NCBI GenBank assembly: GCA_903863885.1
Contig: CAIPEB010000597.1
Coordinates: 1-64,000 of the forward strand
Length of the DNA: 64,000 nt
Reading direction: 5' to 3'
DNA from: an uncultured Planctomycetaceae bacterium
GTDB taxonomy: Bacteria; Planctomycetota; Planctomycetia; Pirellulales; Pirellulaceae
Numbering within the stretch: position 1 is the first letter of the stretch; the number at the start of each line of letters is the position of its first letter. The position numbers and the translations under genes were made by a program. The notes under the pieces are model-generated. The model searched no databases and was not told the origin of the DNA. It was given only the letters and a program-made list of their open reading frames with translations. Below are positions 1 through 16,053 of the stretch, in pieces.

Positions 1-113
1 AGAGCGGCACGGTGCTGGTGCCCTTCTTCGTGCGAGATGTCCAGAAACAGATCGTCGCGTCGGAAACTGAGGACCTGCTGGAGTCTGTCTGTCTGGAGAA
101 AATCACGGAATGA
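1..113 (+). CDS. C-terminal end of an unidentified protein (5' truncated)
   Basis: An open frame enters from the left edge and ends with TGA at 111-113. Only the last ~36 residues are visible (they include VLVPFFVRDVQKQIV and end CLEKITE). The stop overlaps the next ATG (ATGA, 110-113), the same translational coupling used through the rest of this operon, so it is probably the upstream gene of the hydrogenase operon. The fragment is too short to assign a family, and no metal-binding or membrane motif is visible in it. Confidence 0.6.
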   Translation, partial: SGTVLVPFFVRDVQKQIVASETEDLLESVCLEKITE

Positions 114-1204
114 AGGCCCGTCTTGTCCATCGAGATGACGTGTTGAAGATTGTGGACCTGCTCCGCCAGAAGGGCTACGAAGTCGTCGCGCCTTTTTTTG
201 GGCGGGGGCGCGACACGCGTTTCGATAATGTAACCGACGAGAACCGCGACGAGATCCAGATTCACCTGCCGAATCCGTATCACCCGCCCAAGCGGTTCGT
301 CCTGCTCCAGATCGAGCGTTTGCTGCGCATCCACCAACGAGAGGGGCAGATTGAAATCGAGCCGACCTACCGCGAGCCGAAACGCGCCATCTTCGGCATC
401 CGATCGTGCGACATCGCGGGGATTTGGCACTTGGACCGGTTCTTCCTCGGCCGCGAATTCCGCGACATCTACTACGAGAAGCGGCGCGAGAATCTCTTCC
501 TCGTCAATGTCGTCTGCAGCGACCCCGAGCGCGATATCGGCGCGGAATGCTTCTGCGTCTGCTCCGACACGGGTCCCGCCGCGCGCGACCATTTCGACCT
601 TCAGTTGCTGGACCTGAACGACGGCGAATTCATGGTCGTGGCCGGTTCACCTGCCGGCGAGGCGATGTTCGCCGACCCGATCTTCCGGAAGGGCACCAGC
701 GTCCACAGTGCGAAACGGCGCGCGGTGCTCGAGTCGGCACGCAGGAGTTTCAAGCCGTCGACCACAAGCTGGTTCTCCGCCGCGATCCGCCACGTCTCGG
801 CGGGCAAGGTGGCGGAGCAGACGTGGGAGGAAATCGGCAACCGCTGCCTCGAATGCGGCGGCTGCAGCTACGTATGCCCGGCATGCACTTGCTTCACGGT
901 CACCGACCGCCGTGTCGGGCCGGACGAGGTCGAGCGGGTCCGGATATGGGATGCGTGCGCGCTGGGAGGTTTTACTCGCATGGCCGGTGGCCACAATCCG
1001 CGCAAAGCGGTGCACGACCGCCGCAACCGCCGGTTTTTCCGCAAACTGTCACACTACTTCATCCAGCGCGAGCTATCGATCGCCTGCGTGGGCTGCGGCC
1101 GCTGCGCCGCGGTCTGCCATGGCGATGTCGGCATGCCCAGCGTCGTGGAAATGATCCGACGCTCCGCGGCGGAGATGGAAACGCATGAACACGCCCAGCT
1201 CTGA
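110..1204 (+). CDS. 4Fe-4S electron-transfer protein, sulfhydrogenase beta / sulfite reductase subunit A (HydB/AsrA) family
   Basis: This 364-residue protein has a HydB/AsrA-type N-terminal region (GIRSCDIAGI, the equivalent of the family GxRxCD segment, and an AECFCVCSD segment). Two C-terminal clusters of cysteines follow: CLECGGCSYVCPACTC, and CVGCGRCAAVC before HGDVGMP. In the family these bind [4Fe-4S] clusters that pass electrons between an FAD/NAD(P) subunit and a partner enzyme. It overlaps the next gene, which encodes exactly that flavin subunit, by 20 bases. In characterised systems the pair accompanies group 3b hydrogenases or dissimilatory sulfite reductase; here it sits upstream of group 4 hydrogenase genes. 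No sulfite reductase catalytic subunit is present in the window. A cytoplasmic location is inferred because no signal peptide is visible. Confidence 0.85.
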   Translation: MKARLVHRDDVLKIVDLLRQKGYEVVAPFFGRGRDTRFDNVTDENRDEIQIHLPNPYHPPKRFVLLQIERLLRIHQREGQIEIEPTYREPKRAIFGIRSCDIAGIWHLDRFFLGREFRDIYYEKRRENLFLVNVVCSDPERDIGAECFCVCSDTGPAARDHFDLQLLDLNDGEFMVVAGSPAGEAMFADPIFRKGTSVHSAKRRAVLESARRSFKPSTTSWFSAAIRHVSAGKVAEQTWEEIGNRCLECGGCSYVCPACTCFTVTDRRVGPDEVERVRIWDACALGGFTRMAGGHNPRKAVHDRRNRRFFRKLSHYFIQRELSIACVGCGRCAAVCHGDVGMPSVVEMIRRSAAEMETHEHAQL

Positions 1205-2033
1205 CAATATTTACTTGCCGAAGATCGCGGTGCTCGACCGGTCGGTGGACGAGATCGCCGAGGTCAAGACATTCTATTGGCATTTCGACGATCCCGCCGA
1301 GCAGGCGGCCTTCAAGAAGTTCCGGCCCGGCCAGTTCGCGCAGGTCTCGTTGTTCGGCGCGGGCGAGTTCCCCGCGTCGCTGCCGCCCAGCCCAACCGAG
1401 GAGGAGACCTTCTTCACCATCCGCACCGTCGGCAGTTGCACCGCCGCCCTGCACTCGCTCGAGCCGGGCGACAAGTTCGGCGTCCGCGGGCCCTACGGCA
1501 ACGGTTTCCCGATGGAGGACTACTACGGCAAGAACTTGGTCTTTGTCGCTGGCGGCATCGGCTTGATCCCGCTGCGCTCCTGCATCATCTACGCGCTGGC
1601 CCACCGCGACAAATACGAGAAGATCCAGATCTACTACGGCGCCAAGTCGCCGAAGGACCTGATGTATCTCCAAAACCTGCGCGAGTGGGAGGAAGGTGCG
1701 GGCGTCGAGTTCAACCTGACCGTGGACCGCGCCGAGGCGACGTGGAAGGGCCACGTGGGCGTGGTGGGCAGCTTGTTCAAGAAACCGGGCGTGCGTGTGC
1801 CGGTGGAGAATACCGTCGCCTTCGTCTGCGGCCCGCCCATTATGTTCCGCTTCGTCATCAAGGATCTACAGGCGCTCGGTTTCCACGACGGGCAGATCGT
1901 CTCGACGATGGAGCGCTACATGAAATGCGGTGTCGGCAAGTGCGGCCATTGCTGCATCGGCATGGCCTACGTGTGCGTGGACGGTCCCGTCTTCACCTAC
2001 GAGCAGATCAAGAAGCTCGGCGAGGACATCTGA
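1185..2033 (+). CDS. FAD/NAD(P)-binding electron-transfer subunit, sulfhydrogenase gamma / AsrB (HydG, PyrK-like) family
   Basis: This 282-residue protein has the ferredoxin-reductase fold typical of HydG, AsrB and PyrK. The flavin domain contains FTIRTVGSCT and GVRGPYGNGFP (about 90-110). The nucleotide-binding domain has VAGGIGLIPLRS (about 122-133) and a CGPP segment (about 212). The C-terminus carries the [2Fe-2S] motif CGVGKCGHCCIG followed by YVCVDGPVF. Family members move electrons between NAD(P)H and Fe-S partners. The gene overlaps the preceding HydB/AsrA-like gene by 20 bases and the following protease gene as TGATG. With its partner it would give the hydrogenase a route to NAD(P)(H); which nucleotide is used cannot be told from the sequence. 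Confidence 0.87.
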   Translation: MNTPSSDNIYLPKIAVLDRSVDEIAEVKTFYWHFDDPAEQAAFKKFRPGQFAQVSLFGAGEFPASLPPSPTEEETFFTIRTVGSCTAALHSLEPGDKFGVRGPYGNGFPMEDYYGKNLVFVAGGIGLIPLRSCIIYALAHRDKYEKIQIYYGAKSPKDLMYLQNLREWEEGAGVEFNLTVDRAEATWKGHVGVVGSLFKKPGVRVPVENTVAFVCGPPIMFRFVIKDLQALGFHDGQIVSTMERYMKCGVGKCGHCCIGMAYVCVDGPVFTYEQIKKLGEDI

Positions 2034-2512
2034 TGCCCGACCTCCGCGAACAACTCGAGCACTGCTTCCGGGGCCGCGTCTGCCTGATGGGGATCGGCAA
2101 CGTGGACTACGGCGACGACGGGTTCGGCGTCAGGCTGGCGGAGCAACTCGCGGCGGAGGGCTTGGCGGACGTCGTCGTTGCCGGCACCGAGCCGGAGCGG
2201 TTCATCGGGCGGGTTGCCGGCGCGGGCCATGACCACGTGATTTTCCTCGACGCCCTGGAATTCGGCGGCGTCCCCGGCTCGGTGGTGTTCCTCGATTCGG
2301 AAACGATGACCGCGAGGTTTCCGCAGGTTTCCACCCACAAGATCTCACTGGGCCTGCTGGCCCGATGGATTGAAGAACAGGGAACCGCCAAAGCGTGGCT
2401 GCTGGGCGTCCAGCCGGAATCGCTCAACCCCGGCGCCACGCTGACCGCAAGCGCTCGGCGGACCCTTGATGTCCTCGCAAGCCTTTTGAACCCTGGATCC
2501 GCAATCACATGA
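2033..2512 (+). CDS. [NiFe] hydrogenase maturation endopeptidase (HycI/HyaD, family M52)
   Basis: This protein of about 159 residues starts at the ATG embedded in TGATG at 2031-2035, overlapping the previous stop. Near the N-terminus it has the M52 signature GIGNVDYGDDGFGV, with acidic residues that in the family sense the nickel, and further on the HKISLGLL segment with a conserved histidine. M52 enzymes remove a C-terminal peptide from the hydrogenase large subunit once nickel is inserted. The target is probably the large subunit encoded at 4455-6131, which keeps a C-terminal extension beyond its last metal-binding motif. The stop overlaps the next start (ATGA at 2509-2512). Confidence 0.9.
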   Translation: MPDLREQLEHCFRGRVCLMGIGNVDYGDDGFGVRLAEQLAAEGLADVVVAGTEPERFIGRVAGAGHDHVIFLDALEFGGVPGSVVFLDSETMTARFPQVSTHKISLGLLARWIEEQGTAKAWLLGVQPESLNPGATLTASARRTLDVLASLLNPGSAIT

Positions 2513-4458
2513 TGACACCCGAACAGGCCATTGCCGCTTCCATCTGTCTCTGTCTAGCGGGGGCGGCGCTGACGTTGCTCGTTGCTCGCAACAGGGTGGT
2601 TGCGGGGTGGGTTGCATTTGCGATCACGGCGGGTTCCGCAGCACTGATTTGCTGGGCGGTGGTTCACGTCTTCACCAATGGTCCCGGCCGCCCGGCGCAG
2701 TTTCTCACGATGCCGGCCGTGGGGTTTGCGCTGCGCATCCACGTGGACGGACTGACGTCGGTGTTTCTGCTGCTTGCCGCGTGTGTGGCGGTGTGGGCGG
2801 CGTTCTATTCGATCCGCTACATGGATCACTATGCGGACTACAGTGTGGCTCGCTACTACCCGAACTTCCTGCTGTTCCTCGCCGCGATGTACGGGCTGCT
2901 GAGCACCACGGACATGATGTGGTTCTTTTTCATCTTCTGGCAGATGATGACGCTGCCGGGTTACGCGCTCATCCGGTTCGAATACCGCAAGCCGGAGAAC
3001 ATCCGCGCGGCGAACAAATATCTGATCATGATGCAGATTGCCTGCCTGGCGACGATGGGGGGGGCCGAACTGATCTCCGCCACGGGTGGGATGGCCGGCG
3101 GCAGCGATGCGGCGAAGTACGATTTCGATACGGTGAGCGCACACCTGCCCGCCTTGCTGGCCCAGGAGCCGCTTGTGACTGGGCTGGCGTTTGCGCTGTT
3201 TCTGGTGGGTTTTGGCATCAAGATGGGCATGTGGCCGTTCGGGCAGGTGTGGCTGCCGGACGCGCATCCGGCCGCTCCGTCGCCGGTGAGTGCGATGTTA
3301 TCGGGGGTGATGCTCAAAACGGGGGTCTACGGTTTGATGCGTTACTTCCTCTGGCTCGTGCCGGCCGAGGCGCGCGGGGATTTCCCGCTGACGCAGTGGG
3401 GTCTGGCCGTCGTGGGACTGGGCGCGGTGACGATGCTCACAGGCACGTTCGCAGCGTTGCGACAGACTCTCACCAAGCGGCTGCTCGCTTTCTCCAGCAT
3501 CGGACAGATCGGCTACATCCTGCTCGGCCTCGGCGTGTGCATGATGTTGCTCGGCGCCACGGAGTTCGGTCCGGCGGCCGCGCTCGCGGCTGCGGCGTTC
3601 AGCGGCGCGCTGTTCCACACGCTCAATCACGGCCTGTTCAAGAGCCTGCTTTTCCTCAACGCCGGCTCGGTGCTGCAAGCCACAGACACACAGGAACTCG
3701 ACAAGCTGGGCGGCCTCATGCGATTCATGCCGTGGACGGCGGTGACGGCGCTCATTGCGAGCCTTTCCATCGCCGGCGCGCCGTTGTTGAATGGCTTCGC
3801 CAGCAAATGGAGCATCTATATCGCGGCGATCCGGGGCGCCCCCGTATGCGGCCTGCTGCCGTTGCTGGCAATGGTCGCGATCTTCACCAGTGCGTTGACG
3901 CTCGCGTTGTTCATCAAGTTCTTCGGCGGGGTCTTTCTGAGCCGCACCAGCGCAACCGTCGCGGCCCGCGCGGCAGGGCAACCGACGCTGGAGGTCGGTG
4001 GAAAGATGCTCGCGGCCCAAGCCGTGCTCGCGGCCGGTTGCGTGCTGTTCGGCCTGCTGCCGCTCCTGCCGTTGTCGCTGATCGACCGTGCGCTCGACTC
4101 GAGCCGCCACGGGTTTGGCTCGCTGCTGGCGGACGCCTCGGCGGTGAGGGGGCACGGATTGAGCGGTCTCATCGCCGGCGACAGCCAGTCGTTGTATGCG
4201 CCGCTGGCGGTGGCGGCCACGGTGGCGCTGATGTTCGCTCTGGCGCGGCTTCTGGCCCGACTGGGCAGCGCAAGCCGTCGCACCGCGGCGCCGTGGCTCT
4301 GTGGATACGTGAGCGAAGCGGACATTCACCGCTATCGGCCCAGTGGCTTTTATAGCGAACTGACGCGTCTGTTCGACGGGTTGGATTTCGCTCGCCGGCG
4401 GGCCGGGCCGCCTCCGGTCGCCGCCGTGACGGAGAAGACGAAGGAGCCTTGCGCATGA
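2509..4458 (+). CDS. Antiporter-like proton-translocating membrane subunit of group 4 hydrogenase (HyfB/HycC/NuoL family)
   Basis: This is a 649-residue, very hydrophobic protein with roughly 14 predicted membrane spans, of the family shared by Mrp antiporters, complex I NuoL/M/N and HycC/HyfB. The strongly conserved block WLPDAHPAAPSPVSAMLSG followed by VMLKTGVYGLMRY is present near residue 245, as is the RFEYRKPENIRAANKYL loop. In homologues charged residues in broken helices form the ion path. Start is ATG at 2509 (a second ATG follows at 2512); the end overlaps the next gene by ATGA. Only one antiporter-like subunit is encoded here, unlike Hyf or Mrp-linked hydrogenases with several, so the pump arm appears minimal. 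Confidence 0.9.
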   Translation: MMTPEQAIAASICLCLAGAALTLLVARNRVVAGWVAFAITAGSAALICWAVVHVFTNGPGRPAQFLTMPAVGFALRIHVDGLTSVFLLLAACVAVWAAFYSIRYMDHYADYSVARYYPNFLLFLAAMYGLLSTTDMMWFFFIFWQMMTLPGYALIRFEYRKPENIRAANKYLIMMQIACLATMGGAELISATGGMAGGSDAAKYDFDTVSAHLPALLAQEPLVTGLAFALFLVGFGIKMGMWPFGQVWLPDAHPAAPSPVSAMLSGVMLKTGVYGLMRYFLWLVPAEARGDFPLTQWGLAVVGLGAVTMLTGTFAALRQTLTKRLLAFSSIGQIGYILLGLGVCMMLLGATEFGPAAALAAAAFSGALFHTLNHGLFKSLLFLNAGSVLQATDTQELDKLGGLMRFMPWTAVTALIASLSIAGAPLLNGFASKWSIYIAAIRGAPVCGLLPLLAMVAIFTSALTLALFIKFFGGVFLSRTSATVAARAAGQPTLEVGGKMLAAQAVLAAGCVLFGLLPLLPLSLIDRALDSSRHGFGSLLADASAVRGHGLSGLIAGDSQSLYAPLAVAATVALMFALARLLARLGSASRRTAAPWLCGYVSEADIHRYRPSGFYSELTRLFDGLDFARRRAGPPPVAAVTEKTKEPCA

Positions 4459-6131
4459 TAGCTCGAGACAAACTGAACCTGCTGAAAGACAAGTTCGGCC
4501 CTGCCATCCTGCGGGCCGACCTGCCGGACGACGGGCGTCTGTTCGTCTCGGTCGAACCGTCCGCCATCCGCGACATTTGCCGGTATTTGTTCGGCGACCT
4601 CGACGCGCGATATATCATCAGCATCGGTGTGGACGACCGGCCATTCTCGGGGAAGTTCCTCGTCACGCACAACTTTGCTTTCGACGCGGAGAAGCTGCTT
4701 GTCTGCGTGATGGTTCATCTGCCTGCCGAGAACCCGAAACTCGACAGTATCACCCGCGATGTGCCTGCCGCGAACTGGGCGGAGCGCGAAATCCGCGACA
4801 TGGTCGGCGTGGAGTTTGAAGGCCACTGTTACCCGAAACGGCTCGTGCTGCCCGATGGATGGCCCGATGGCGTACATCCGCTCCGAAAGGACTTCGCTTG
4901 GAACGAAGTGCCGAAAGATTTCGAAGAGGAGCGCGAGTTCGAGTTCGACGAACCGCCGGCGGGTTGCACGGTCGTGCCGTTCGGGCCGTTCCATCCAACG
5001 CTTGACGAGCCGGCGCACTTCCGGCTCTACGTTGAGGGCGAGATGGTGCGCGGCTGCGAGTATCGCGGTTTCATGGTCCACCGCGGCATCGAGAAGCTCG
5101 CTGAGTCGGTGCTCAACTACAACGACATCCCGATGATGGCCGAGCGCATCTGCGGTATCTGCGGTTGCGTCCACAGCGTCGCCTATGTGCAGGCGGTCGA
5201 GAACGCCGCCGCCATCAAGCCGCCGCCGCGCGCCGAGTACATCCGCACCATCATGCTGGAGATTGAGCGGCTGCACAGTCACCTGTTGTGGGTCGGCCTG
5301 GCTTGCCACATCGTTGGCTTCGACACGCTCTTCATGCAGAGCTTCCGCATCCGCGAGCCGGTGATGTGGATCGCCGAAAAGATCAGCGGCAACCGCAAGA
5401 CCTACGGACTCTGCCTGATCGGGGGTGTGCGTTGGGACATCACGGCGGAATCGCGGGCCGAGTTGCGCGCCGTGCTCGATAAGCTCGAAGCCGAATGGCG
5501 GCCCTTGGTCGCCGCCGTGCTCAAGGACAGAAACATTCAAAAGCGAACTCGCGGCATCGGAATCGCCGACAAGACCGCGTGCAAACGCTCCGGCCTCATC
5601 GGTCCCGTGGCCCGCGCTGCGGGTGTGGACATCGACTGCCGCCGCGACCATCCCTACGCGGCCTACGACCGCGTCCGCTTCGACGTCATCACCAGCGACG
5701 GCGGCGACGTCTGGTCGCGCGTCGTGGTGCGTGCGAAGGAAGTCTTCGAGTCCATCGAGATCATCCGCCAGTGCCTCGACAAGATGGAGCCGGGCCCGCT
5801 CCAGCTCGGCATCGAGGATGAACTGCCCGTGGGACGGCTCGGCCTGTCATCGGTCGAGGCTCCGCGCGGCGAATCACACCATTTCGTCATCACCGGCGAG
5901 AACAACCGGCCGCGTCGCTGGCGGGTGCGCGCACCGACCTACCAGAATCTCCAGGGCGTGCCCGCCATGATCAAGGATCAGCAGATCGCCGACATGACGA
6001 TCTCGCTGGGCAGCATCGACCCGTGCTTCTCCTGCACCGACCGGCTGGAAACGATCGACCTCAAGTCCGGCGCGACGAAGATCTGGACGGAGGGGGAACT
6101 CTTGAAACTCGTGAGGACGAAGAAAGCATGA
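4455..6131 (+). CDS. Group 4 [NiFe] hydrogenase large subunit with N-terminal NuoC-like domain (HycE/HyfG type)
   Basis: This 558-residue catalytic subunit has a NuoC-like domain (about 1-165) followed by the NuoD/HycE-like domain. Both nickel-binding motifs are intact: RICGICGC with C233/C236, and DPCFSCTDR with C524/C527. That separates it from complex I NuoD, which lacks these cysteines. After R530 there is a 28-residue tail, matching HycE, where the M52 protease cuts after the Arg of the DPCxxCTDR motif. The start is ATG 4455: AAGGAG lies eight bases upstream and the ATG overlaps the previous stop. An upstream in-frame TTG at 4449 is less likely. Fusion of NuoC- and NuoD-like parts is typical of formate-hydrogenlyase-like enzymes. 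Confidence 0.93.
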   Translation: MIARDKLNLLKDKFGPAILRADLPDDGRLFVSVEPSAIRDICRYLFGDLDARYIISIGVDDRPFSGKFLVTHNFAFDAEKLLVCVMVHLPAENPKLDSITRDVPAANWAEREIRDMVGVEFEGHCYPKRLVLPDGWPDGVHPLRKDFAWNEVPKDFEEEREFEFDEPPAGCTVVPFGPFHPTLDEPAHFRLYVEGEMVRGCEYRGFMVHRGIEKLAESVLNYNDIPMMAERICGICGCVHSVAYVQAVENAAAIKPPPRAEYIRTIMLEIERLHSHLLWVGLACHIVGFDTLFMQSFRIREPVMWIAEKISGNRKTYGLCLIGGVRWDITAESRAELRAVLDKLEAEWRPLVAAVLKDRNIQKRTRGIGIADKTACKRSGLIGPVARAAGVDIDCRRDHPYAAYDRVRFDVITSDGGDVWSRVVVRAKEVFESIEIIRQCLDKMEPGPLQLGIEDELPVGRLGLSSVEAPRGESHHFVITGENNRPRRWRVRAPTYQNLQGVPAMIKDQQIADMTISLGSIDPCFSCTDRLETIDLKSGATKIWTEGELLKLVRTKKA

Positions 6132-7045
6132 AACCGCTCCTCCCCATTCTGGGCGGCATCGCCAACGTGCTTCTCTTGCTTCTCGTGGCGCCGTTCTTCC
6201 AAGGCGTCCTGCGCACGGTCACGGCGCGCATCCAGTCCCGGAAGGGTCCGCCCATCTGGCAGGCCTACTTCGACCTGCTGAAACTGCTCGGCAAGGAGGA
6301 CATCGAGTCCGGGGAGACGCCGCTCATGCAGCGGTTCGCGGTCTATCTGTCGCTGGCCACCGTGTTGACGTTAGCCTGTCTGGTACCGATGGGGTTTCCG
6401 GTGCCTATGAACGGCGTTGCCGATGCCATTCTGCTGATCTACGTCCTCACGTTGAGCGGTGTCTGCACGTTGCTGGCGGGGTTTGCGGCAGGTTCCACCT
6501 ACTCGCTGGTCGGCGCCAGCCGCGAGATGTTGACGATGATCGCGCTGGAGCCGTTGTTCGCCGTGGCCGTCGTCATCGGCGCGGTGCATACCGGCTCGTT
6601 CCGGCTCGATACGGTTCTGAACGGCTCGGTGTACGCCGCGGGCGTGCCGGTGTCCGGCATTCTCATGCTGGGGGTGATGCTCCTGTCGTTCCAGGCGTTC
6701 GTACAACGCGCGCCCTTCGACATCTCCGAGGCCGAGACGGAGATCATGGAAGGCCCGTTGATGGAGTACAGCGGCCCGAAGCTGGCGCTCCTCAAGTACG
6801 CCCAAATGGCCAAGCTGATCATCTACAGCGCCCTGTTCGTGGCGTTGTTCGCGCCGTGGGGCTCGGGCCTGCCTTTCTTTCTGGGGTGGCTGGTGTTCTG
6901 GGCGAAGGTGTGCCTGCTGGTGCTGCTGGTGACGCTGGTGGCGGCGACGCACGCGCGCTTTCGCATAGACCAGGCCCTCCGCTATTTTGCGGGCCTGCTT
7001 GGCGTGGCGTTGTTCGCGCTGGTGCTGGCTGGATACGGTTACTAA
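6128..7045 (+). CDS. Group 4 hydrogenase membrane anchor subunit (HycD/HyfC, NuoH-like)
   Basis: This 305-residue protein has about eight hydrophobic segments. Diagnostic NuoH/HycD sequences are RIQSRKGPPIWQAYFDLLK near residue 35, EMLTMIALEPLF, and the acidic loop APFDISEAETEIMEGP followed by LMEYSGPKLALLKY near residue 200. In the family this subunit docks the catalytic arm to the membrane and begins the ion channel. The ATG at 6128 overlaps the stop of the large-subunit gene (ATGA). An in-frame extension upstream would lie entirely inside the large-subunit gene and is rejected. Confidence 0.92.
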   Translation: MKPLLPILGGIANVLLLLLVAPFFQGVLRTVTARIQSRKGPPIWQAYFDLLKLLGKEDIESGETPLMQRFAVYLSLATVLTLACLVPMGFPVPMNGVADAILLIYVLTLSGVCTLLAGFAAGSTYSLVGASREMLTMIALEPLFAVAVVIGAVHTGSFRLDTVLNGSVYAAGVPVSGILMLGVMLLSFQAFVQRAPFDISEAETEIMEGPLMEYSGPKLALLKYAQMAKLIIYSALFVALFAPWGSGLPFFLGWLVFWAKVCLLVLLVTLVAATHARFRIDQALRYFAGLLGVALFALVLAGYGY

Positions 7046-7057
7046 CAAGGTGAACGC

Positions 7058-7582
7058 ATGTCCGTCCTGAGCAAGCTCAAAGAAACGCTCGCCTGCCTGA
7101 AAGCGGGACGCGTGACGCTGCCATATCCGGCGCAGCCTCTCCACGCGCCGGAGAGATTCCGCGGCCGGCCCATCTTCGACGCGACCAAGTGCACCGGCTG
7201 CGGCGGCTGCGCCAACGTCTGCCCTGCGCGCGAGATCCTCTTGTTCGACAAGAGCCAGGAGATCCGCGTCCTGGAATACCTCGGCCGCCGTTGCACCTAT
7301 TGCGGGCGTTGCGCGGACGTGTGTCCCGAGAAAGCCGTCACGATGAGCCATGAATTCGAGAACGCGACCAACTCCATCGGCGACATCAATCAGCGGATCG
7401 AACTGTTCATGAGCACATGCCAGCGGTGCGGGCGCTGTTTTAAGGAACCGGCGGCGCTGGACCAGTTGAAGATGAAGGGCTATCGTTTCGACGATGTGGA
7501 GCAGGAGCGCTGGGTGTTCCGCTCCGAGTCCTACTTCGAAAACGAGCCGGTCGTGGACGATATCAAGATCGAATGGGATTAG
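7058..7582 (+). CDS. Ferredoxin-like subunit of group 4 hydrogenase (HycF/HyfH/NuoI-like)
   Basis: This 174-residue protein has two [4Fe-4S] motifs, CTGCGGCANVCP (about 46-57) and CTYCGRCADVCP (about 76-87), plus an extra CQRCGRC near residue 123. It would carry electrons between the small subunit and the electron donor or acceptor. AAGG lies seven bases before the ATG, 13 bases after the NuoH-like gene. The third cysteine group beyond the usual two ferredoxin motifs is compatible with an additional metal or docking site, but this is inference. Confidence 0.88.
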   Translation: MSVLSKLKETLACLKAGRVTLPYPAQPLHAPERFRGRPIFDATKCTGCGGCANVCPAREILLFDKSQEIRVLEYLGRRCTYCGRCADVCPEKAVTMSHEFENATNSIGDINQRIELFMSTCQRCGRCFKEPAALDQLKMKGYRFDDVEQERWVFRSESYFENEPVVDDIKIEWD

Positions 7583-7588
7583 CCCGCC

Positions 7589-8125
7589 ATGCTGAAAAGC
7601 CTCTGCCAGAAAATGTTCGGCCGGTCGCTGTGGGTCTATCACGCCAACAGCGGCGGATGCAACGGGTGCGACATCGAGGTGCTCAACGTACTCACCCCCT
7701 ACTACGATGCCGAGCGATTCGGCATCAAGCTGGTTGGCTCACCCCGCCATGCCGATGTGATGCTCTGCCAGGGACCGGCGATGCGTTCCACGGCGAAAGC
7801 CCTCCAGCGCGCCTACGACGCCATGCCCGCGCCGAAAATCGTCTTCGCCATCGGCTCGTGCGCGTGCGGCGGCGGCATCTGGTTCGACAGCTACTCTGTC
7901 CTCGGCCCTGTCGAGAAACTCGTGCCGGTGAACTTCTACATCCCCGGTTGCCCGCCGCGCCCGGAGGCTATCATTTACGGCGTGGCCGTCGCGCTCGGCT
8001 TGGTGGACAAGAAGACCGCGCCCGTCCAATTCAAACAGATCGAGTTGCCCATCCCGCGTTACCATCCCGAACACCTGCTCGGCCGCGAGGAACTGGTCGT
8101 GTACGAGAAAGTCGAGAAGGTCTAG
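7589..8125 (+). CDS. [NiFe] hydrogenase small subunit, group 4 (HycG/HyfI/NuoB-like)
   Basis: This 178-residue subunit carries the ligands of the proximal [4Fe-4S] cluster: GGCNGCDIE (C30/C33 region), GSCACGGG near residue 90 and GCPPRPEAI near residue 120. It is short, with no signal peptide and no medial or distal cluster domain, as expected for group 4 enzymes facing the cytoplasm. It starts six bases after the ferredoxin-like gene and is the last gene of the operon. A short inverted repeat follows the stop at 8146-8167. Confidence 0.92.
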   Translation: MLKSLCQKMFGRSLWVYHANSGGCNGCDIEVLNVLTPYYDAERFGIKLVGSPRHADVMLCQGPAMRSTAKALQRAYDAMPAPKIVFAIGSCACGGGIWFDSYSVLGPVEKLVPVNFYIPGCPPRPEAIIYGVAVALGLVDKKTAPVQFKQIELPIPRYHPEHLLGREELVVYEKVEKV

Positions 8126-8145
8126 CCCGGGGAAAAGGAAAAGGG

Positions 8146-8167
8146 GACAGGCCCGAATGGCCCTGTC
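8146..8167 (+). terminator. Weak hairpin after the hydrogenase operon
   Basis: GACAGG (8146-8151) pairs with CCTGTC (8162-8167), and an inner CC/GG pair is possible with one bulge. It lies 21 bases after the last stop codon of the operon. There is no T-run, so it is at best a Rho-assisted or processing structure. Confidence 0.3.
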
Positions 8168-8288
8168 GATCCCAAGCCAACAGCAAGGACGAGAAGCACG
8201 ATTAAGAGCGGGGTGTTGTTCTTGCGTGCGTCCATTTCCCTGCCGCGGTTTATTCCCGGTGGATATCGACTGACGTCGGAACGGTAAT

Positions 8289-11087
8289 TCAACGTCCTGC
8301 GAGCGTCTCCCGCACGCCTTGCGCCTCCACGATCGGCCACGAAGCCCGCAGGTCGTCCTGGTATGGTCCGATCTTTTCGAACGGTATCGGCTCGAAGCCG
8401 AGTTGCAGCGCCGGCGACTGCGGTTGTAGCCGGTAATCGTCATGTGCGGGATCGACAAACAACGGATCGGCAACGATCGAGTGCAGGTCCATTCCCTGAG
8501 CTTGCCAGCTTTGCCATTCGTCGGCCAACTCCGCTTCGCTCAGCGCAATATCATCCAACCAGAAGCTCTCGGCTCCCCGCACGAAGCTGATCCGCCACAT
8601 CAGCGTATCCATCGTTGCGGCGTATTGCGGATCCCCGTCACCGGGGAGACGAAAGGCGAGTTCATACCGCCGCCATTGGCCGGTGAGTGCGGCTGTGGAC
8701 TGAATCTGCCAACTGTGCTGGTCCTTCTTCCAAGAAAAGACGCTCAGTTCCACGGGCGTGACTGCGCCGTCCGATTTCATCCACACGCTGAGGCGATAGG
8801 CCGTTCGAGGCCGGTAGGGAACCGCACCCAGAGTCAGGTACACCTTTTCCGCGTTTTCCATCTTGGCCGCTGCCCGCGCCGGTTCAATGAATGCCGCGCA
8901 TGCACCCTCGTGTGACTGGCCGGTCACCACACGAACCTTCGCTCCGCCATCCGGGAACACGCCAATGCCCCAACTGCTCGGCGATCCGCCGATTTCGCCC
9001 TCCTCCAGGCCGGGGTTTGGCACCAGGTTGCGACCGATGTCCTTCCGGGCAACAACGACTCCCGTGTGTAAAGGGTGCCCCGCATGATGAATGAGGTTGA
9101 AATCCGACTGATTATGCTCCCAGGGAACGCCCTCCATCTTGAACAATGCCGAGCTTGGGTCGGAGTATGAAAGGATGTTGCGCCGGAATACATTGCCCGT
9201 CATGACCCGGTGATCGGCGAGCGGCACCCGGCGAGGATCCCGCAACGTCGCGATCTTCCGCCAGGCGGGATGCTGTATGGCGAGCTCATAGTTCCTCGTC
9301 CAGCCGTCGACCATGGTGCTCCAAAACCCCTCTTCCGTTGTCCATCCCCGCCAGTACGTCTGCGACTGACCGCCGTCGACCAGGATGTTGTTTTCGATCA
9401 CATTGTCCCGGCCGCTGTGGATCAGAAGGCAAGTGCGCGGCGCACGGACCAGAACGTTGCCGACGATGGTAACCCCGCTGGCCGCCCAGTCCGGGTAGAG
9501 TGCAGCGGTGAAATACGGCGAAATCCACCGGCCGGTTTGCGAATTGTACCCGTAGCCGAGCGTGTCGTGGATGAAGTTATACCGGATCACTGTGTCCAAC
9601 CAGCCGAGCCAATCGATCGCTCCGCCGCCGATGGCACCGGTATCCTCGCTCTCGGTGCATGTGTGTCGAATGCGGTTGTATTCAACCGCATGCCCGCTCC
9701 CCCAGAGAAAGATCCCGCTCTGAGGCGTGTCGTGGATGAGGTTGTGTGTAATGTGCACCCCGGCGCAGGCACCGACCGAGCGGTCTCCGCCAGGCGCCAG
9801 CGCCAACCCAACACCCTTTGCGCTGCGATCAACGCGTCCCACGTGATGGATGTAATTGTTGTCAATCCGGACCTCGCTGCGCATCAGCCTGATCGAGTCC
9901 CCCGCGGCGACATGAACGCCGTCGGATCCGACGTGTGAAATGTCGTTTCCCACAACTCCGTTTTCGCGCCCCCCTTCGACTGTCACGCCGCAGCCGTCGT
10001 GATCGCCCGCATTGCGAATGGTGTTACCGGCGACGACGCAGCCTGTGCAGTCTCTCAGCAACACGGCCGTCCCGTTGCTGCATTCAAGCGTGAATCCGCG
10101 GACGGTGACATACTCACAGCCCTCCAATTTGACGAGATGGTCCAGTTCTGCCAGGTAGGTCGGCTTGCTATCGATCGGCGACGGGGGCCAGAAGTAGAGA
10201 ACGCCTGCCTGGCGATCCAAGTACCATTCACGCGGACTGTCAAGCTCTTCGAAGAGCCCGCGAACGAAGTAGCGGTCTCCCGGCCGAATTTCGTAAAAAC
10301 AGCCCGGCTCCAACTGCAGTTGCCGCGTAGCCGGGTGAACCGAGCGGACTTTGAGCAGGAAATGCTCCCAGTTGAAACGCGGGAAGATGGATACCTCGCC
10401 CAGTTCCGGTTGTTGCCACTGCCGGACGTCACCCGGCTTGGCGCACAGAGTATGCGTGAGCCGCGGGATGTTCCTCTGCCAGAAATCCAGGTTTCCGTGT
10501 TTTGCGAGGTAATCGTCCTCGTCGGGCGAATCCGCGTACATGCTGTACGGCGTGCCGTCCACGTACGCCCAGTCGCCTCCCCCCGGGGCATGTGGATTGT
10601 CGTTGGGGTATCGCGCCAGTTCCTGCCGCATGCCGTCGAATACCAGCACGCGGGCGCCCGCACCGGCGGTCCCCAGACTCGCAGCATCAGCCTTCAATAT
10701 CTCTCCGCGGAAAGGAGTGAACCCCTCGATCGAACGTCCGCCGCGCAATACGGGCCTCTCGTTCTCGTAGGCGCGATACACGATCGGGGCCGTTACCGTT
10801 CCGGAATCTTCTTTGCCGAACTGCAGAGTGTCCGGCAGTGTGTAAACCCCCTGCCGGACGTACACGGTCACAGGTTCGCCCTTGGCTCCGCTTGACCTCT
10901 TTGCGCGAATCACATCGCGAGCGCGAGTCAAGCTCGCGAGCGGTTTGGCTTCGGTGCCGGGATTCTCGTCTGAACCATTTGCGGAGACATAGAAGTCCTC
11001 CGCCCATGCTCCGGGAACGATCAGGCATGCGAGCAACAGAACGCACGATCGGGATGCATATCTGAACGTCGGCGGGTTGATGGTCAT
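8289..11087 (-). CDS. Secreted right-handed beta-helix protein with carbohydrate-binding-like C-terminal module
   Basis: This 932-residue protein has a signal peptide (SCVLLLACLIVPGAWA, mature N-terminus near EDFYVSANGSDENPGT). The region after it matches the start of many pectate-lyase-like beta-helix proteins (a DUF1565-like opening, YVRQGVYTLPDTLQF). The middle (about 320-620) is rich in short N/G/I-V repeats such as VVAGNTIRNAGDHDG, YIHHVG and NVIENNILVDGG, typical of parallel beta-helix coils. Residues about 690-850 look like a jelly-roll carbohydrate-binding module (NLVPNPGLEEGEIGG to SFWLDDIALSEA). A polysaccharide substrate is likely but cannot be named. AGGAA stands before the ATG at 11087. 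No neighbouring carbohydrate genes define the substrate. Confidence 0.82.
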   Translation of the reverse strand: MTINPPTFRYASRSCVLLLACLIVPGAWAEDFYVSANGSDENPGTEAKPLASLTRARDVIRAKRSSGAKGEPVTVYVRQGVYTLPDTLQFGKEDSGTVTAPIVYRAYENERPVLRGGRSIEGFTPFRGEILKADAASLGTAGAGARVLVFDGMRQELARYPNDNPHAPGGGDWAYVDGTPYSMYADSPDEDDYLAKHGNLDFWQRNIPRLTHTLCAKPGDVRQWQQPELGEVSIFPRFNWEHFLLKVRSVHPATRQLQLEPGCFYEIRPGDRYFVRGLFEELDSPREWYLDRQAGVLYFWPPSPIDSKPTYLAELDHLVKLEGCEYVTVRGFTLECSNGTAVLLRDCTGCVVAGNTIRNAGDHDGCGVTVEGGRENGVVGNDISHVGSDGVHVAAGDSIRLMRSEVRIDNNYIHHVGRVDRSAKGVGLALAPGGDRSVGACAGVHITHNLIHDTPQSGIFLWGSGHAVEYNRIRHTCTESEDTGAIGGGAIDWLGWLDTVIRYNFIHDTLGYGYNSQTGRWISPYFTAALYPDWAASGVTIVGNVLVRAPRTCLLIHSGRDNVIENNILVDGGQSQTYWRGWTTEEGFWSTMVDGWTRNYELAIQHPAWRKIATLRDPRRVPLADHRVMTGNVFRRNILSYSDPSSALFKMEGVPWEHNQSDFNLIHHAGHPLHTGVVVARKDIGRNLVPNPGLEEGEIGGSPSSWGIGVFPDGGAKVRVVTGQSHEGACAAFIEPARAAAKMENAEKVYLTLGAVPYRPRTAYRLSVWMKSDGAVTPVELSVFSWKKDQHSWQIQSTAALTGQWRRYELAFRLPGDGDPQYAATMDTLMWRISFVRGAESFWLDDIALSEAELADEWQSWQAQGMDLHSIVADPLFVDPAHDDYRLQPQSPALQLGFEPIPFEKIGPYQDDLRASWPIVEAQGVRETLAGR

Positions 11088-11477: not shown

Positions 11478-12440
11478 TCAGAAGTAGATCACCGCACCCG
11501 TGTAGGGAAGTTGGTACCAGACGCCGCTGGTCTGTACACCTGAGTCGGATCCTTCAATCAAGTTGAGGTTGGCCAGGCCGACGTCGGAGACGCCGATTAC
11601 CTGGTAACCCAGTCTCCAACTCAGCCAGTTGGTTGCATTGAATTGATATTCGATTCCAAGTTCGCCCATCAGCGAACCCTGGTCGCTGCCGTCGGCCACG
11701 AACGAGTCGATTTCGGCCGCCGAATTGTGCACCTCTCTCGATCGGTCGATGGAGTTGAACAGATAGCCGCCCTTCAGCGTGAGGTTGAACATGCCGCCGG
11801 GGGCCACGAGATGACCGGCTAATCCGAACTGCGGACCGATCATCTGATTCTCGGTGCTTACCCAGCGAACGTCGTCGCCGCCCGCGTTGATGGTCATGTA
11901 GTCGAGAGATTCTCCGATCTTCATGTACCGGACGCCGTAGAGCACGTCGAGTGTCGACACTTCATTGGCCGCAACTTCCTGCAAGCCGTTCAATTCCATG
12001 TTTGCCAGTTCGGTCTGATACCTGACGGAAACGAACGTGTTGTCATCGAACAGCGGGTCAGGCGTGGAGCCGGTCAGAGTGAAGGGTGATGCCATCAGTG
12101 CGTCGGGGTCGGATGCGCTTGCGGAACTCACCCAGTCTTTCGTGAGCAAATACGATCCTTCGACTCCGAACGTGCCGTGCCGGACGCCAACCGTGAACCT
12201 TCCTGCCGCTGTAAAGTCCGGCCTGACGTCGGAGGCGGTGAGGATCGGGGCCGAACTCACCGTCGTATCGGTTCCGCTCGTTGTCTCGTGATACTGAAAC
12301 GCAAGGTCGGTCCCGGCCGTTCGCGTGGGAATCAGGAAATCCGCGGAGCCGTACCATTGGCCGCATGCCTCGGCGGACCAGAAGTGCAGAGCACACAGAA
12401 GAAGAACCGCTAAAGTCCGTACACTTGTCATTCGGCACAT
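11478..12440 (-). CDS. BBP7-like outer-membrane beta-barrel protein (paralogue 1)
   Basis: This 320-residue protein (317 from the internal ATG at 12431) has a signal peptide (TLAVLLLCALHFWSAEACG) and then GQWYGSADFLIPTR, resembling the start of planctomycetal BBP7-type porins. Many alternating polar/aromatic strands follow, and the C-terminus ends in aromatic YTGAVIYF, as in barrel proteins. It is a clear paralogue of the gene at 15073-16053: GQWYGS, FTAAGRFTVGVRHGTFGVEGSYL, ASPFTLTG, LYGVRYMKIGESL and the terminal LPYTGAV.IYF all recur there. Comparison with that paralogue favours the start MTSVRTLAVLL at 12431 over the longer MCRM form. Its function as a pore is inferred from the family. 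Confidence 0.8.
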   Translation of the reverse strand: MCRMTSVRTLAVLLLCALHFWSAEACGQWYGSADFLIPTRTAGTDLAFQYHETTSGTDTTVSSAPILTASDVRPDFTAAGRFTVGVRHGTFGVEGSYLLTKDWVSSASASDPDALMASPFTLTGSTPDPLFDDNTFVSVRYQTELANMELNGLQEVAANEVSTLDVLYGVRYMKIGESLDYMTINAGGDDVRWVSTENQMIGPQFGLAGHLVAPGGMFNLTLKGGYLFNSIDRSREVHNSAAEIDSFVADGSDQGSLMGELGIEYQFNATNWLSWRLGYQVIGVSDVGLANLNLIEGSDSGVQTSGVWYQLPYTGAVIYF

Positions 12441-15072: not shown

Positions 15073-16053
15073 ATGACGCTTAAGACGAGAACTATCTGTC
15101 TTGCCGTATTGATCTGCACGGTTGCCGGGGGGCCGCGACCCGCATTCGGGCAGTGGTATGGTTCGGTGGATTGCGTCGCGCCGGCGCGGTTCACGACACA
15201 CAATACCGTGTTCCAGTGGAACGAAACCGAGGTCGTGCAGAGCAACGTACCGACTGGCGACTATGTGGTCGGCAGTACTGCGCTGCTCGACGTGGATTCC
15301 CTCGACATGGGATTTGTCGCGGCGGGTCGAGCGACGGTAGGGCGGCATTTCGGTGCGTACGGCATCGAGGGGTCGTACATGCGGAGCAACGAGTGGGATT
15401 GCGCTGCATCGGTTTTTGACCCGAGCGGACACATGGCATCGCCGTTTTCGCTGACGGGCAATCCAGTGACTCCGGAGTTCGACAACAACTATTCAGCATC
15501 GGTCGCTTACCAGGCGCAGTTGGAGTCGGCCGAACTGCATCTGATGAGTTCTGTGGCCCAGGACTATTACGACGCCGATGTGTGGCTGTTGTTCGGGGTG
15601 CGGTGGATGCAGATCGGCGAGTCGCTGCAGTTTCACCAGCAGAACGCGACCGCGATCTGCGACGTTACAACGGCCGCGGACAACCGGCTGATTGGTCCGC
15701 AGTGCGGCTTCAATACGGTGTCTCCGCTGCCGTACGGATTCTTGAATCTCACGCTGAAGGGGTTTGTGGGGTTCAATTCGATTCGAGAGAACATTGACTA
15801 CAACGGTGTCGCTCTCAGCGACAACGACGGTTCGGCCTGTTTGATGGGAGAGGCCGGGATCGCTTATCTGGTGACTCCCGCGCCGAACATTGCCGTGCGG
15901 GTCGGCTACAACATCATGGGTTTGAGCAACATCGCCCTGGCATCGGGCAATTTCGAGGGGATTCCCGCGACCGCGCAATCGGGCTCCGTCAATGTTCGGC
16001 GCGAAGGCGTCGGCTATCACCTTCCGTACATTGGCGTGATCCTGATGTATTGA
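15073..16053 (+). CDS. BBP7-like outer-membrane beta-barrel protein (paralogue 2)
   Basis: This 326-residue protein has a signal peptide (TICLAVLICTVAGGPRPAFG), then GQWYGSVD. Shared blocks with the minus-strand gene at 11478-12440 include FVAAGRATVGRHFGAYGIEGS, ASPFSLTG, LFGVRWMQIGESL, LNLTLKGFVGFNS and the C-terminal HLPYIGVILMY. The aromatic end suits insertion by the barrel assembly machinery. Relative to paralogue 1 it contains several extra cysteines (for example WDCAAS, ICDV, QCGFN, ACLMG). Pore function is inferred from the family only. The two copies point outward, with a flavodoxin and a GH172 gene between them. Confidence 0.8.
   Translation: MTLKTRTICLAVLICTVAGGPRPAFGQWYGSVDCVAPARFTTHNTVFQWNETEVVQSNVPTGDYVVGSTALLDVDSLDMGFVAAGRATVGRHFGAYGIEGSYMRSNEWDCAASVFDPSGHMASPFSLTGNPVTPEFDNNYSASVAYQAQLESAELHLMSSVAQDYYDADVWLLFGVRWMQIGESLQFHQQNATAICDVTTAADNRLIGPQCGFNTVSPLPYGFLNLTLKGFVGFNSIRENIDYNGVALSDNDGSACLMGEAGIAYLVTPAPNIAVRVGYNIMGLSNIALASGNFEGIPATAQSGSVNVRREGVGYHLPYIGVILMY

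Follow-up and report, generated by a model that had tools for sequence, protein, structure and literature searches.

The left end of a 64,000-nucleotide stretch of DNA from an uncultured Planctomycetaceae bacterium (GenBank assembly GCA_903863885.1, contig CAIPEB010000597.1, here C597), referred to as the window, carries an operon for a group 4 [NiFe] hydrogenase together with an NAD(P)-linked HydB/HydG pair. According to open reading frames and family searches, eight plus-strand genes fill positions 110-8125, with their ends overlapping or close (Table 1). An earlier sequence-only reading had described these eight genes, their overlaps and both nickel-binding motifs of the large subunit (CGICGCVH, DPCFSCTDR), and all of them were found. 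The same reading let HydB/HydG lead the operon, which is wrong. Window position 1 is the left end of the contig, and a ninth gene, here called X, lies upstream with only its tail in view. The tail is 67% identical to residues 639-674 of X from a related locus (L025) and overlaps HydB by ATGA. The rest of this X was not found in its own assembly, where the search returned the 36-residue tail and two other matches of 29-31%.

Table 1. Genes of the hydrogenase operon at the left end of the window.
Feature	Position	Strand	Remarks
Gene X tail (last 36 codons and stop), FdhF-like	3..113	+	In frame; remainder beyond contig end
HydB/AsrA-like iron-sulfur protein, 364 aa	110..1204	+	NCBIfam ShyB 151 bits, HydB 137, AsrA 132, all below cut-off
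HydG/AsrB-like flavoprotein, NAD(P)-binding and [2Fe-2S] domains, 282 aa	1185..2033	+	PRK08345 239 bits, ShyC 211, AsrB 195, all below cut-off; PF00175, PF10418
HycI-type M52 hydrogenase maturation protease	2033..2512	+	TIGR00072 95.8 bits (cut-off 47.45); PF01750
NuoL/HyfB/HycC-like antiporter-type membrane subunit, 649 aa	2509..4458	+	Best E. coli match HyfB, 35% identity
[NiFe] large subunit with fused NuoC domain (NuoCD/HycE/HyfG-like)	4455..6131	+	Identity to E. coli HyfG 42%, HycE 40%, NuoCD 27%
NuoH/HycD-like membrane anchor	6128..7045	+	PF00146; E-channel glutamates in common with HycD
NuoI/HycF-like 2[4Fe-4S] subunit, extra CxxCxxC near C-terminus	7058..7582	+	HycF 32%, HyfH 38%
NuoB/HycG-like small subunit	7589..8125	+	HyfI 47%; NF005012 above cut-off

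Conservation of the operon

One pattern-based scan of 84,980 species genomes returned 31 loci, of which 29 are close relatives (71-90% in the best segment) and the other two are 28% matches. These relatives, which we call type I together with the operon of the window, sit in metagenome-assembled genomes (MAGs) labelled Verrucomicrobiota, Acidobacteriota, Planctomycetota, Methylomirabilota or unclassified. In all 25 loci that reach HydB the gene upstream of it is a full-length FdhF-like X. The order X-HydB-HydG-protease-NuoL-large-NuoH-NuoI-NuoB recurs in the same 25 loci as far as each contig extends, exceptions at NuoL aside, and is kept across several phyla; a recurrence in 25/25 is not due to chance. 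NuoL is absent from the operon in two of the 25 loci (L017 and L024, whose operons are 99.8% identical and thus not independent) and doubled in two others (L012 and L028). Besides one NuoL, L025 holds a 177-aa NuoL remnant (L025:6984-7517). Start and stop of X and HydB overlap in 19 of 24 loci examined, L028 being left out.

No neighbour outside the operon is common to more than three of the 29 loci. This, with strand and order constant in 25/25, supports the earlier supposition that HydB and HydG belong to the hydrogenase. That they serve an unrelated enzyme encoded left of the window was rejected: the window's own gene in that place is cut off, but its relatives carry X there, in the same operon. 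Each of the two nickel motifs is present in 28/29 relatives, the misses being the cut locus L032 and L028 with its broken frame.

Several type I operons lie near other redox genes. A second [NiFe] small/large pair, presumably HoxYH-like as judged from its motifs, stands directly upstream of X in two loci (L020:640-2928, L021:762-3029). A few kb downstream of the operon, further complex-I-like/group 4 genes occur in L013 (15929-21520) and L014 (18039-21055), and a NuoE/NuoF-like pair occurs in L012 (15421-17428).

The hydrogenase core and its membrane subunits

The best match of the large subunit in the PDB is subunit 5 of E. coli formate hydrogenlyase (FHL) with 426 bits; the Pyrococcus membrane-bound hydrogenase is the next cited, at 237. 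In the large-subunit tree, for which 14 of the 29 type I loci were used and in which some branches are long, a 22-row clade with support 100/99 unites type I with HycE, HyfG and relatives that lack the second nickel motif. Within it the type I large subunits form a clade of their own (100/99). Partners of the NuoB, NuoH, NuoI and NuoL type, the set of group 4 enzymes, are present, except for NuoL in L017 and L024. The complex-I-like build of one NuoL-type and one NuoH-type subunit that had been proposed for the window is supported.

The NuoI-like subunit has eight cluster cysteines as well as C121, C124 and C127 in 28/28 rows; this last triad stands where HycF has a four-cysteine metal site. 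The NuoB-like subunit has C24, C27, C91 and C121 in 26/26 rows. Regarding ion translocation, the NuoH-like subunit keeps the E-channel residues in common with HycD, and the NuoL-like subunit keeps the lysines of transmembrane helices (TM) 7, 8 and 12. The TM5 glutamate is replaced by glutamine in 22/22 type I rows; this count left out L010 (short match) and L028, the copies of L012 and L028 were checked separately, and L017 and L024 have no NuoL. In the TM5/TM7 glutamate/lysine pair, E. coli HycC has lost the lysine according to the accessible part of PMC9474812, so that type I shows the opposite defect. The same source gives that replacement of the HycC TM5 glutamate by alanine did not significantly lower H2 production. 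Since this residue is replaceable in HycC, its loss alone does not exclude ion coupling. The residue pattern for ion translocation, which the sequence-only reading had supposed, is thus mixed, with the E-channel kept and the TM5 glutamate lost; besides, L017 and L024 do without NuoL, and the complex may or may not move ions.

HydB/HydG, a probable input module

Type I HydB keeps 15 cysteines common to the HydB of group 3b hydrogenases, of formate dehydrogenase (FDH)-linked loci and of the type II loci described below; one of the 15 is absent in 3/14 of the 3b rows. HydG retains its motifs for FAD, NAD(P) and [2Fe-2S], with GGIGLIPLRS in 24/24 type I rows. The sole PDB match of HydB at E 0.001 is the beta subunit of P. 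furiosus sulfhydrogenase (9nez_B). HydB and HydG do not reach the NCBIfam equivalog cut-offs (ShyB 151 of 690, AsrB 195 of 289), so they are homologues of those proteins rather than the equivalogs themselves. A HycB/HyfA-like gene was not detected by tblastn (1e-5) in window positions 1-8300 or in the 29 type I loci. The sequence-only reading had supposed a link between H2 and NAD(P)(H). Membership of HydB/HydG in the operon and their intact motifs speak for it; the FDH-like subunit, which the operon also holds, lay out of sight of that reading. The window's own genome also contains a separate group 3b-like HydBGDA cluster (L131, G000:C433) and a lone HydB-HydG pair (L130, G000:C481).

Gene X, a subunit of the FDH family

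The closest sequences to X are FDHs. X shares 31% identity with E. coli FdhF over 661 residues and 22% with NuoG over 188. Against the Fdh-alpha model TIGR01591 three X scored 568, 561 and 598 bits and did not reach the cut-off of 666.25. A predicted structure of X, with a mean predicted local distance difference test score (pLDDT) of 76.7, residues 1-50 below 50 and 20 of the 25 X in the underlying alignment, was compared with FDH-H (1aa6) and gave a Z-score of 34.9 and a root-mean-square deviation of 3.9 over 595 aligned residues. Another FDH (34.4) and periplasmic nitrate reductase (34.0) tied with it, so that the fold does not single out FDH. The X proteins are 673-685 aa long in 24 loci; in L028 X runs on into HydB and was trimmed at 690 residues.

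The four N-terminal [4Fe-4S] cysteines are present in 25/25 X. We take selenocysteine 140 (Sec140), His141 and Arg333 of FdhF to be the catalytic residues of FDH, and none of the three is kept in any of the 25 X, the window's own X being cut off. The Sec/Cys140 position holds Tyr in 24 and Phe in one, the Arg333 position Thr in 18, Ala in five and Ser in two. At the His141 position six residue types occur (Cys in 14, Ser in five, Arg in three, Val, Thr and Gly in one each). The alignment is anchored by a locus from the same phylum, L132 (G089:C490, FdhF-like gene at 7411-9432, minus strand), with the order HydG - Sec-containing FdhF - HydB. Its in-frame TGA falls exactly at the Tyr position and its Arg is intact; L132 apparently encodes a genuine NAD(P)-linked selenocysteine FDH.

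FdhD is a maturation factor of such FDHs. It was found in the Sec-FDH genome G089 and in 8/14 control genomes, but in none of the 26 genomes carrying the operon (0/26). With the catalytic triad replaced in 25/25 and FdhD not found, X as an active FDH was rejected; judged by its residues and this genomic setting, X is very probably no FDH. In the 26 operon genomes the molybdenum cofactor (Moco) genes MoaA, MoeA and MoaC were detected in 14, 16 and 15, respectively (controls 11/14 each), and the window's own genome holds all three. None of the three was found in 10/26. The hydrogenase maturation gene HypD is present in 23/26 operon genomes and in 8 of these ten, among them both L017 and L024 with their near-identical operons. 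The ten Moco-gene-negative genomes have a full-length X with the same kinds of substitution as elsewhere. If one Moco cluster were missed as often as HypD (3/26), the chance of at least 10/26 misses would be about 0.0004, and that of at least 8/23 would be 0.003. Because the genes are clustered in some genomes, their joint absence does not equal three independent misses, and completeness of the MAGs is not stated. Where the absences are real, X is very probably no molybdoenzyme either.

Occurrence of type I and a second lineage of HydBG-linked loci

Type I is rare. Among 392 genomes of the window's own phylum, 35 of which have a large-subunit match at E <= 1e-60, it was found in the window's own genome only, the next best large subunit being 46% identical. 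In the phylum of L005 a type I HydB occurs in 1/288 genomes, the L005 centre itself. The operon was present in 0/8 sampled genomes of the same family, and its nearest relatives (89-90%) come from MAGs with the label Verrucomicrobiota. When each block of the window is compared with the rest, tetranucleotide composition deviates most in the first 8 kb (0.179, against 0.154 for the next block and 0.109-0.121 for the others). Composition and distribution suggest that this genome likely gained the operon by transfer; a chimeric contig is a conceivable alternative. Elsewhere in the window, two similar secreted-looking proteins of 320 and 326 aa with a GQWYGS-type start, perhaps outer-membrane barrels, are encoded at 11478-12440 (minus strand) and 15073-16053 (plus strand).

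In a second planctomycete lineage HydB and HydG also accompany group 4 hydrogenases, which we call type II. Twenty of the loci with a large-subunit match at E <= 1e-60 were extended. HydG was present in 12. A HycB-like gene occurs in all of these 12, HydB is in view in 11 and two NuoL in six; in the others the contig ends nearby. X is more eroded in 10 of the 12 loci, without Sec loop and Arg block, and absent from the other two (L076, L081), in whose genomes neither MoaC nor FdhD was found. In L076, L081 and L136 the type II operons read HydB-HydG-HycB with no FDH-like gene between HydG and HycB.

In the trees of HydB and HydG, which left out L020 (HydB in two pieces) and L028 (broken frames), type I and type II stand apart and type I forms its own clade in each. 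Together with the position of the type I large subunit next to HycE/HyfG, this led to rejection of a common origin of both types, in trees with long branches and weak deep forks. The separation suggests that the pairing of HydBG with a group 4 hydrogenase probably arose twice. L132 groups with type I in the HydB tree (99/98), though on a branch as long as 2.14, but among 3b in the HydG tree. An origin of type I from an FDH-HydBG cassette of this kind is only a lead.

Discussion

On balance, the product of the nine-gene operon X-hydB-hydG-hycI-hycC-hycE-hycD-hycF-hycG is probably an NAD(P)H/H2 oxidoreductase of the membrane that descends from an FHL-type group 4 hydrogenase, in which X would be a decayed FDH kept as scaffold and/or relay. 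Gene content and order, the motifs and the losses in X and in the genomes are observations; the assembly of the subunits into one complex, the electron path, its direction and any ion coupling are inferred. By analogy with the FHL relay, as given in the accessible part of PMC9474812, electrons would pass from NAD(P)H to the FAD and then the [2Fe-2S] cluster of HydG, to the [4Fe-4S] clusters of HydB, perhaps to the cluster of X, and on via NuoI and NuoB to the [NiFe] site. X would thereby act as scaffold and/or one-cluster relay, as NuoG does in complex I. The reaction probably lies near equilibrium, and NAD(P)H could drive H2 evolution only at low H2 or with the help of an ion gradient.

Four known systems are close, the nearest enzyme being FHL. 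E. coli FHL-1 (hycBCDEFGI and fdhF, HydDB group 4a) has a like core with HycC-, HycD-, HycE-, HycF- and HycG-like subunits, a HycI-like protease and a subunit of the FdhF fold. The type I large subunit groups with HycE/HyfG as in a group 4a FHL, but HycB, the four-cluster linker, is absent with HydB and HydG in its place, and X, the counterpart of FdhF, lacks Sec140, His141 and Arg333 and so the marks of an active FdhF. The group 3b NAD(P)-linked hydrogenases, such as P. furiosus sulfhydrogenase I (HydBGDA), have homologues of HydB and HydG with the same cysteine pattern; unlike in type I, their pair serves a soluble HydDA hydrogenase. Complex I likewise combines an NAD(P)H flavoprotein and an FDH-derived subunit with a core of the NuoB/CD/H/I/L type, but the type I operon has no NuoE/NuoF, keeps the [NiFe] motifs, and its X is much nearer to FDH than to NuoG.

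The fourth is a group 4 hydrogenase of Saganbacteria RX5A, for which Matheus Carnevali et al. already reported the association with HydBG in 2019 (PMC6349859). According to the accessible part of that report, asrA, asrB and a molybdopterin oxidoreductase stand beside the hydrogenase; the latter was called an FDH by hidden Markov models but not by phylogeny, and 'could not be identified as a formate dehydrogenase'. The locus also holds cooF and Mrp-like subunits. Likened by this described gene content only, RX5A fits type II (12 loci among L073-L086), in which the HycB-like gene is present in 12/12. Type I differs from it in having no HycB-like gene and 0 to 2 NuoL, and for the large subunit, HydB and HydG the two types occupy different clades. 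Type I would be a further variant, a group 4 hydrogenase that descends from an FHL, is linked to HydBG and carries an FDH subunit that is very probably dead. No paper on the compact type I operon was found in the literature searched, which most subscription journals lay outside.

Several observations weigh against the proposed NAD(P)H/H2 oxidoreductase with a decayed FDH. Scores of 561-598 bits against Fdh-alpha are more than a mere scaffold might need, and type I X keeps many landmarks of the pocket, including an invariant block of the NN.QG.CD.G type in the former cofactor region. Moco genes are present in 14 to 16 of the 26 operon genomes, including that of the window, and lie close together in some of the positive ones (e.g. 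G412:C211). Of the 14 tested genomes that carry type II-like group 4 loci, five have FdhD and seven MoaC, presumably for other enzymes. The operon NuoL is absent in L017 and L024, and HydB does not resemble HycB, which clouds how HydB would dock on NuoI.

X might instead be a live molybdo- or tungstoenzyme of new chemistry, with Tyr or no protein ligand to the metal, in a complex coupling its substrate to NAD(P) and H2. The FDH-family fold with much of its cofactor region, the Tyr at the ligand position in 24/25 and the Moco genes of the window's own genome are in line with this idea. It is nevertheless unlikely, given the ten operon genomes without detected MoaA, MoeA and MoaC, eight of them with HypD, whose X has residues of the same kinds, and given the free variation of position 141 beside the Tyr.

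In another scheme the flavoprotein confurcates: H2 would be evolved with electrons from NAD(P)H and reduced ferredoxin together, and ferredoxin would dock on the NuoI-like subunit or on HydB. By itself NAD(P)H is a poor electron source for H2, judged by the potentials in the abstract of PMC9304861. Additional cysteines in type I, Cys151 of HydB and Cys257 of HydG (24/24 each, neither of them in the 30 other rows), would suit such a scheme. We consider it quite improbable: family searches found no second flavin domain encoded in the operon, and we know of no group 3b HydBG that bifurcates.

X-HydB-HydG might also form a separate soluble NAD(P)H oxidoreductase that is merely co-transcribed with the hydrogenase, since HydBG pairs are also found on their own (L130) or beside a Sec-FDH (L132). 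Against this very unlikely arrangement stand the order kept in 25/25 loci across phyla and the overlapping genes of the window; moreover, as HycB is missing, the hydrogenase would be left with no visible donor module. An ordinary FHL, with X oxidising formate and NAD(P) as side acceptor, is suggested by a gene set parallel to hyc/fdhF and by FDHs as nearest sequences of X, but it is hardly credible with three catalytic residues replaced in 25/25, FdhD in 0/26 and HycB not detected either in the window or in any of the 29 loci.

Returning to the NAD(P)H/H2 oxidoreductase, a wider evolutionary course can be proposed tentatively. On two or more independent occasions an FHL-type hydrogenase may have turned into an energy-converting hydrogenase linked to NAD(P)H, while its FDH decayed to a Moco-free, NuoG-like subunit, in parallel to the step that gave complex I its FDH-derived subunit. 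The stages would coexist today as an active Sec-FDH with HydBG, a dead FDH in type I, an eroded FDH in type II and, in some type II operons, an FDH that is gone.

If the type I complex is indeed an NAD(P)H/H2 oxidoreductase, membrane-bound group 4 hydrogenases would gain NAD(P)H as a direct partner in bacteria that are mainly known through MAGs of soil, wetland and groundwater, and gene callers may mislabel such operons as 'sulfite reductase' or 'formate hydrogenlyase'. Operons with anything from 0 to 2 copies of NuoL would offer a natural experiment on ion coupling. Moreover, the old question of how an FDH subunit became NuoG of complex I would be made testable, and the genomes without a detectable Moco pathway are material for a direct test.

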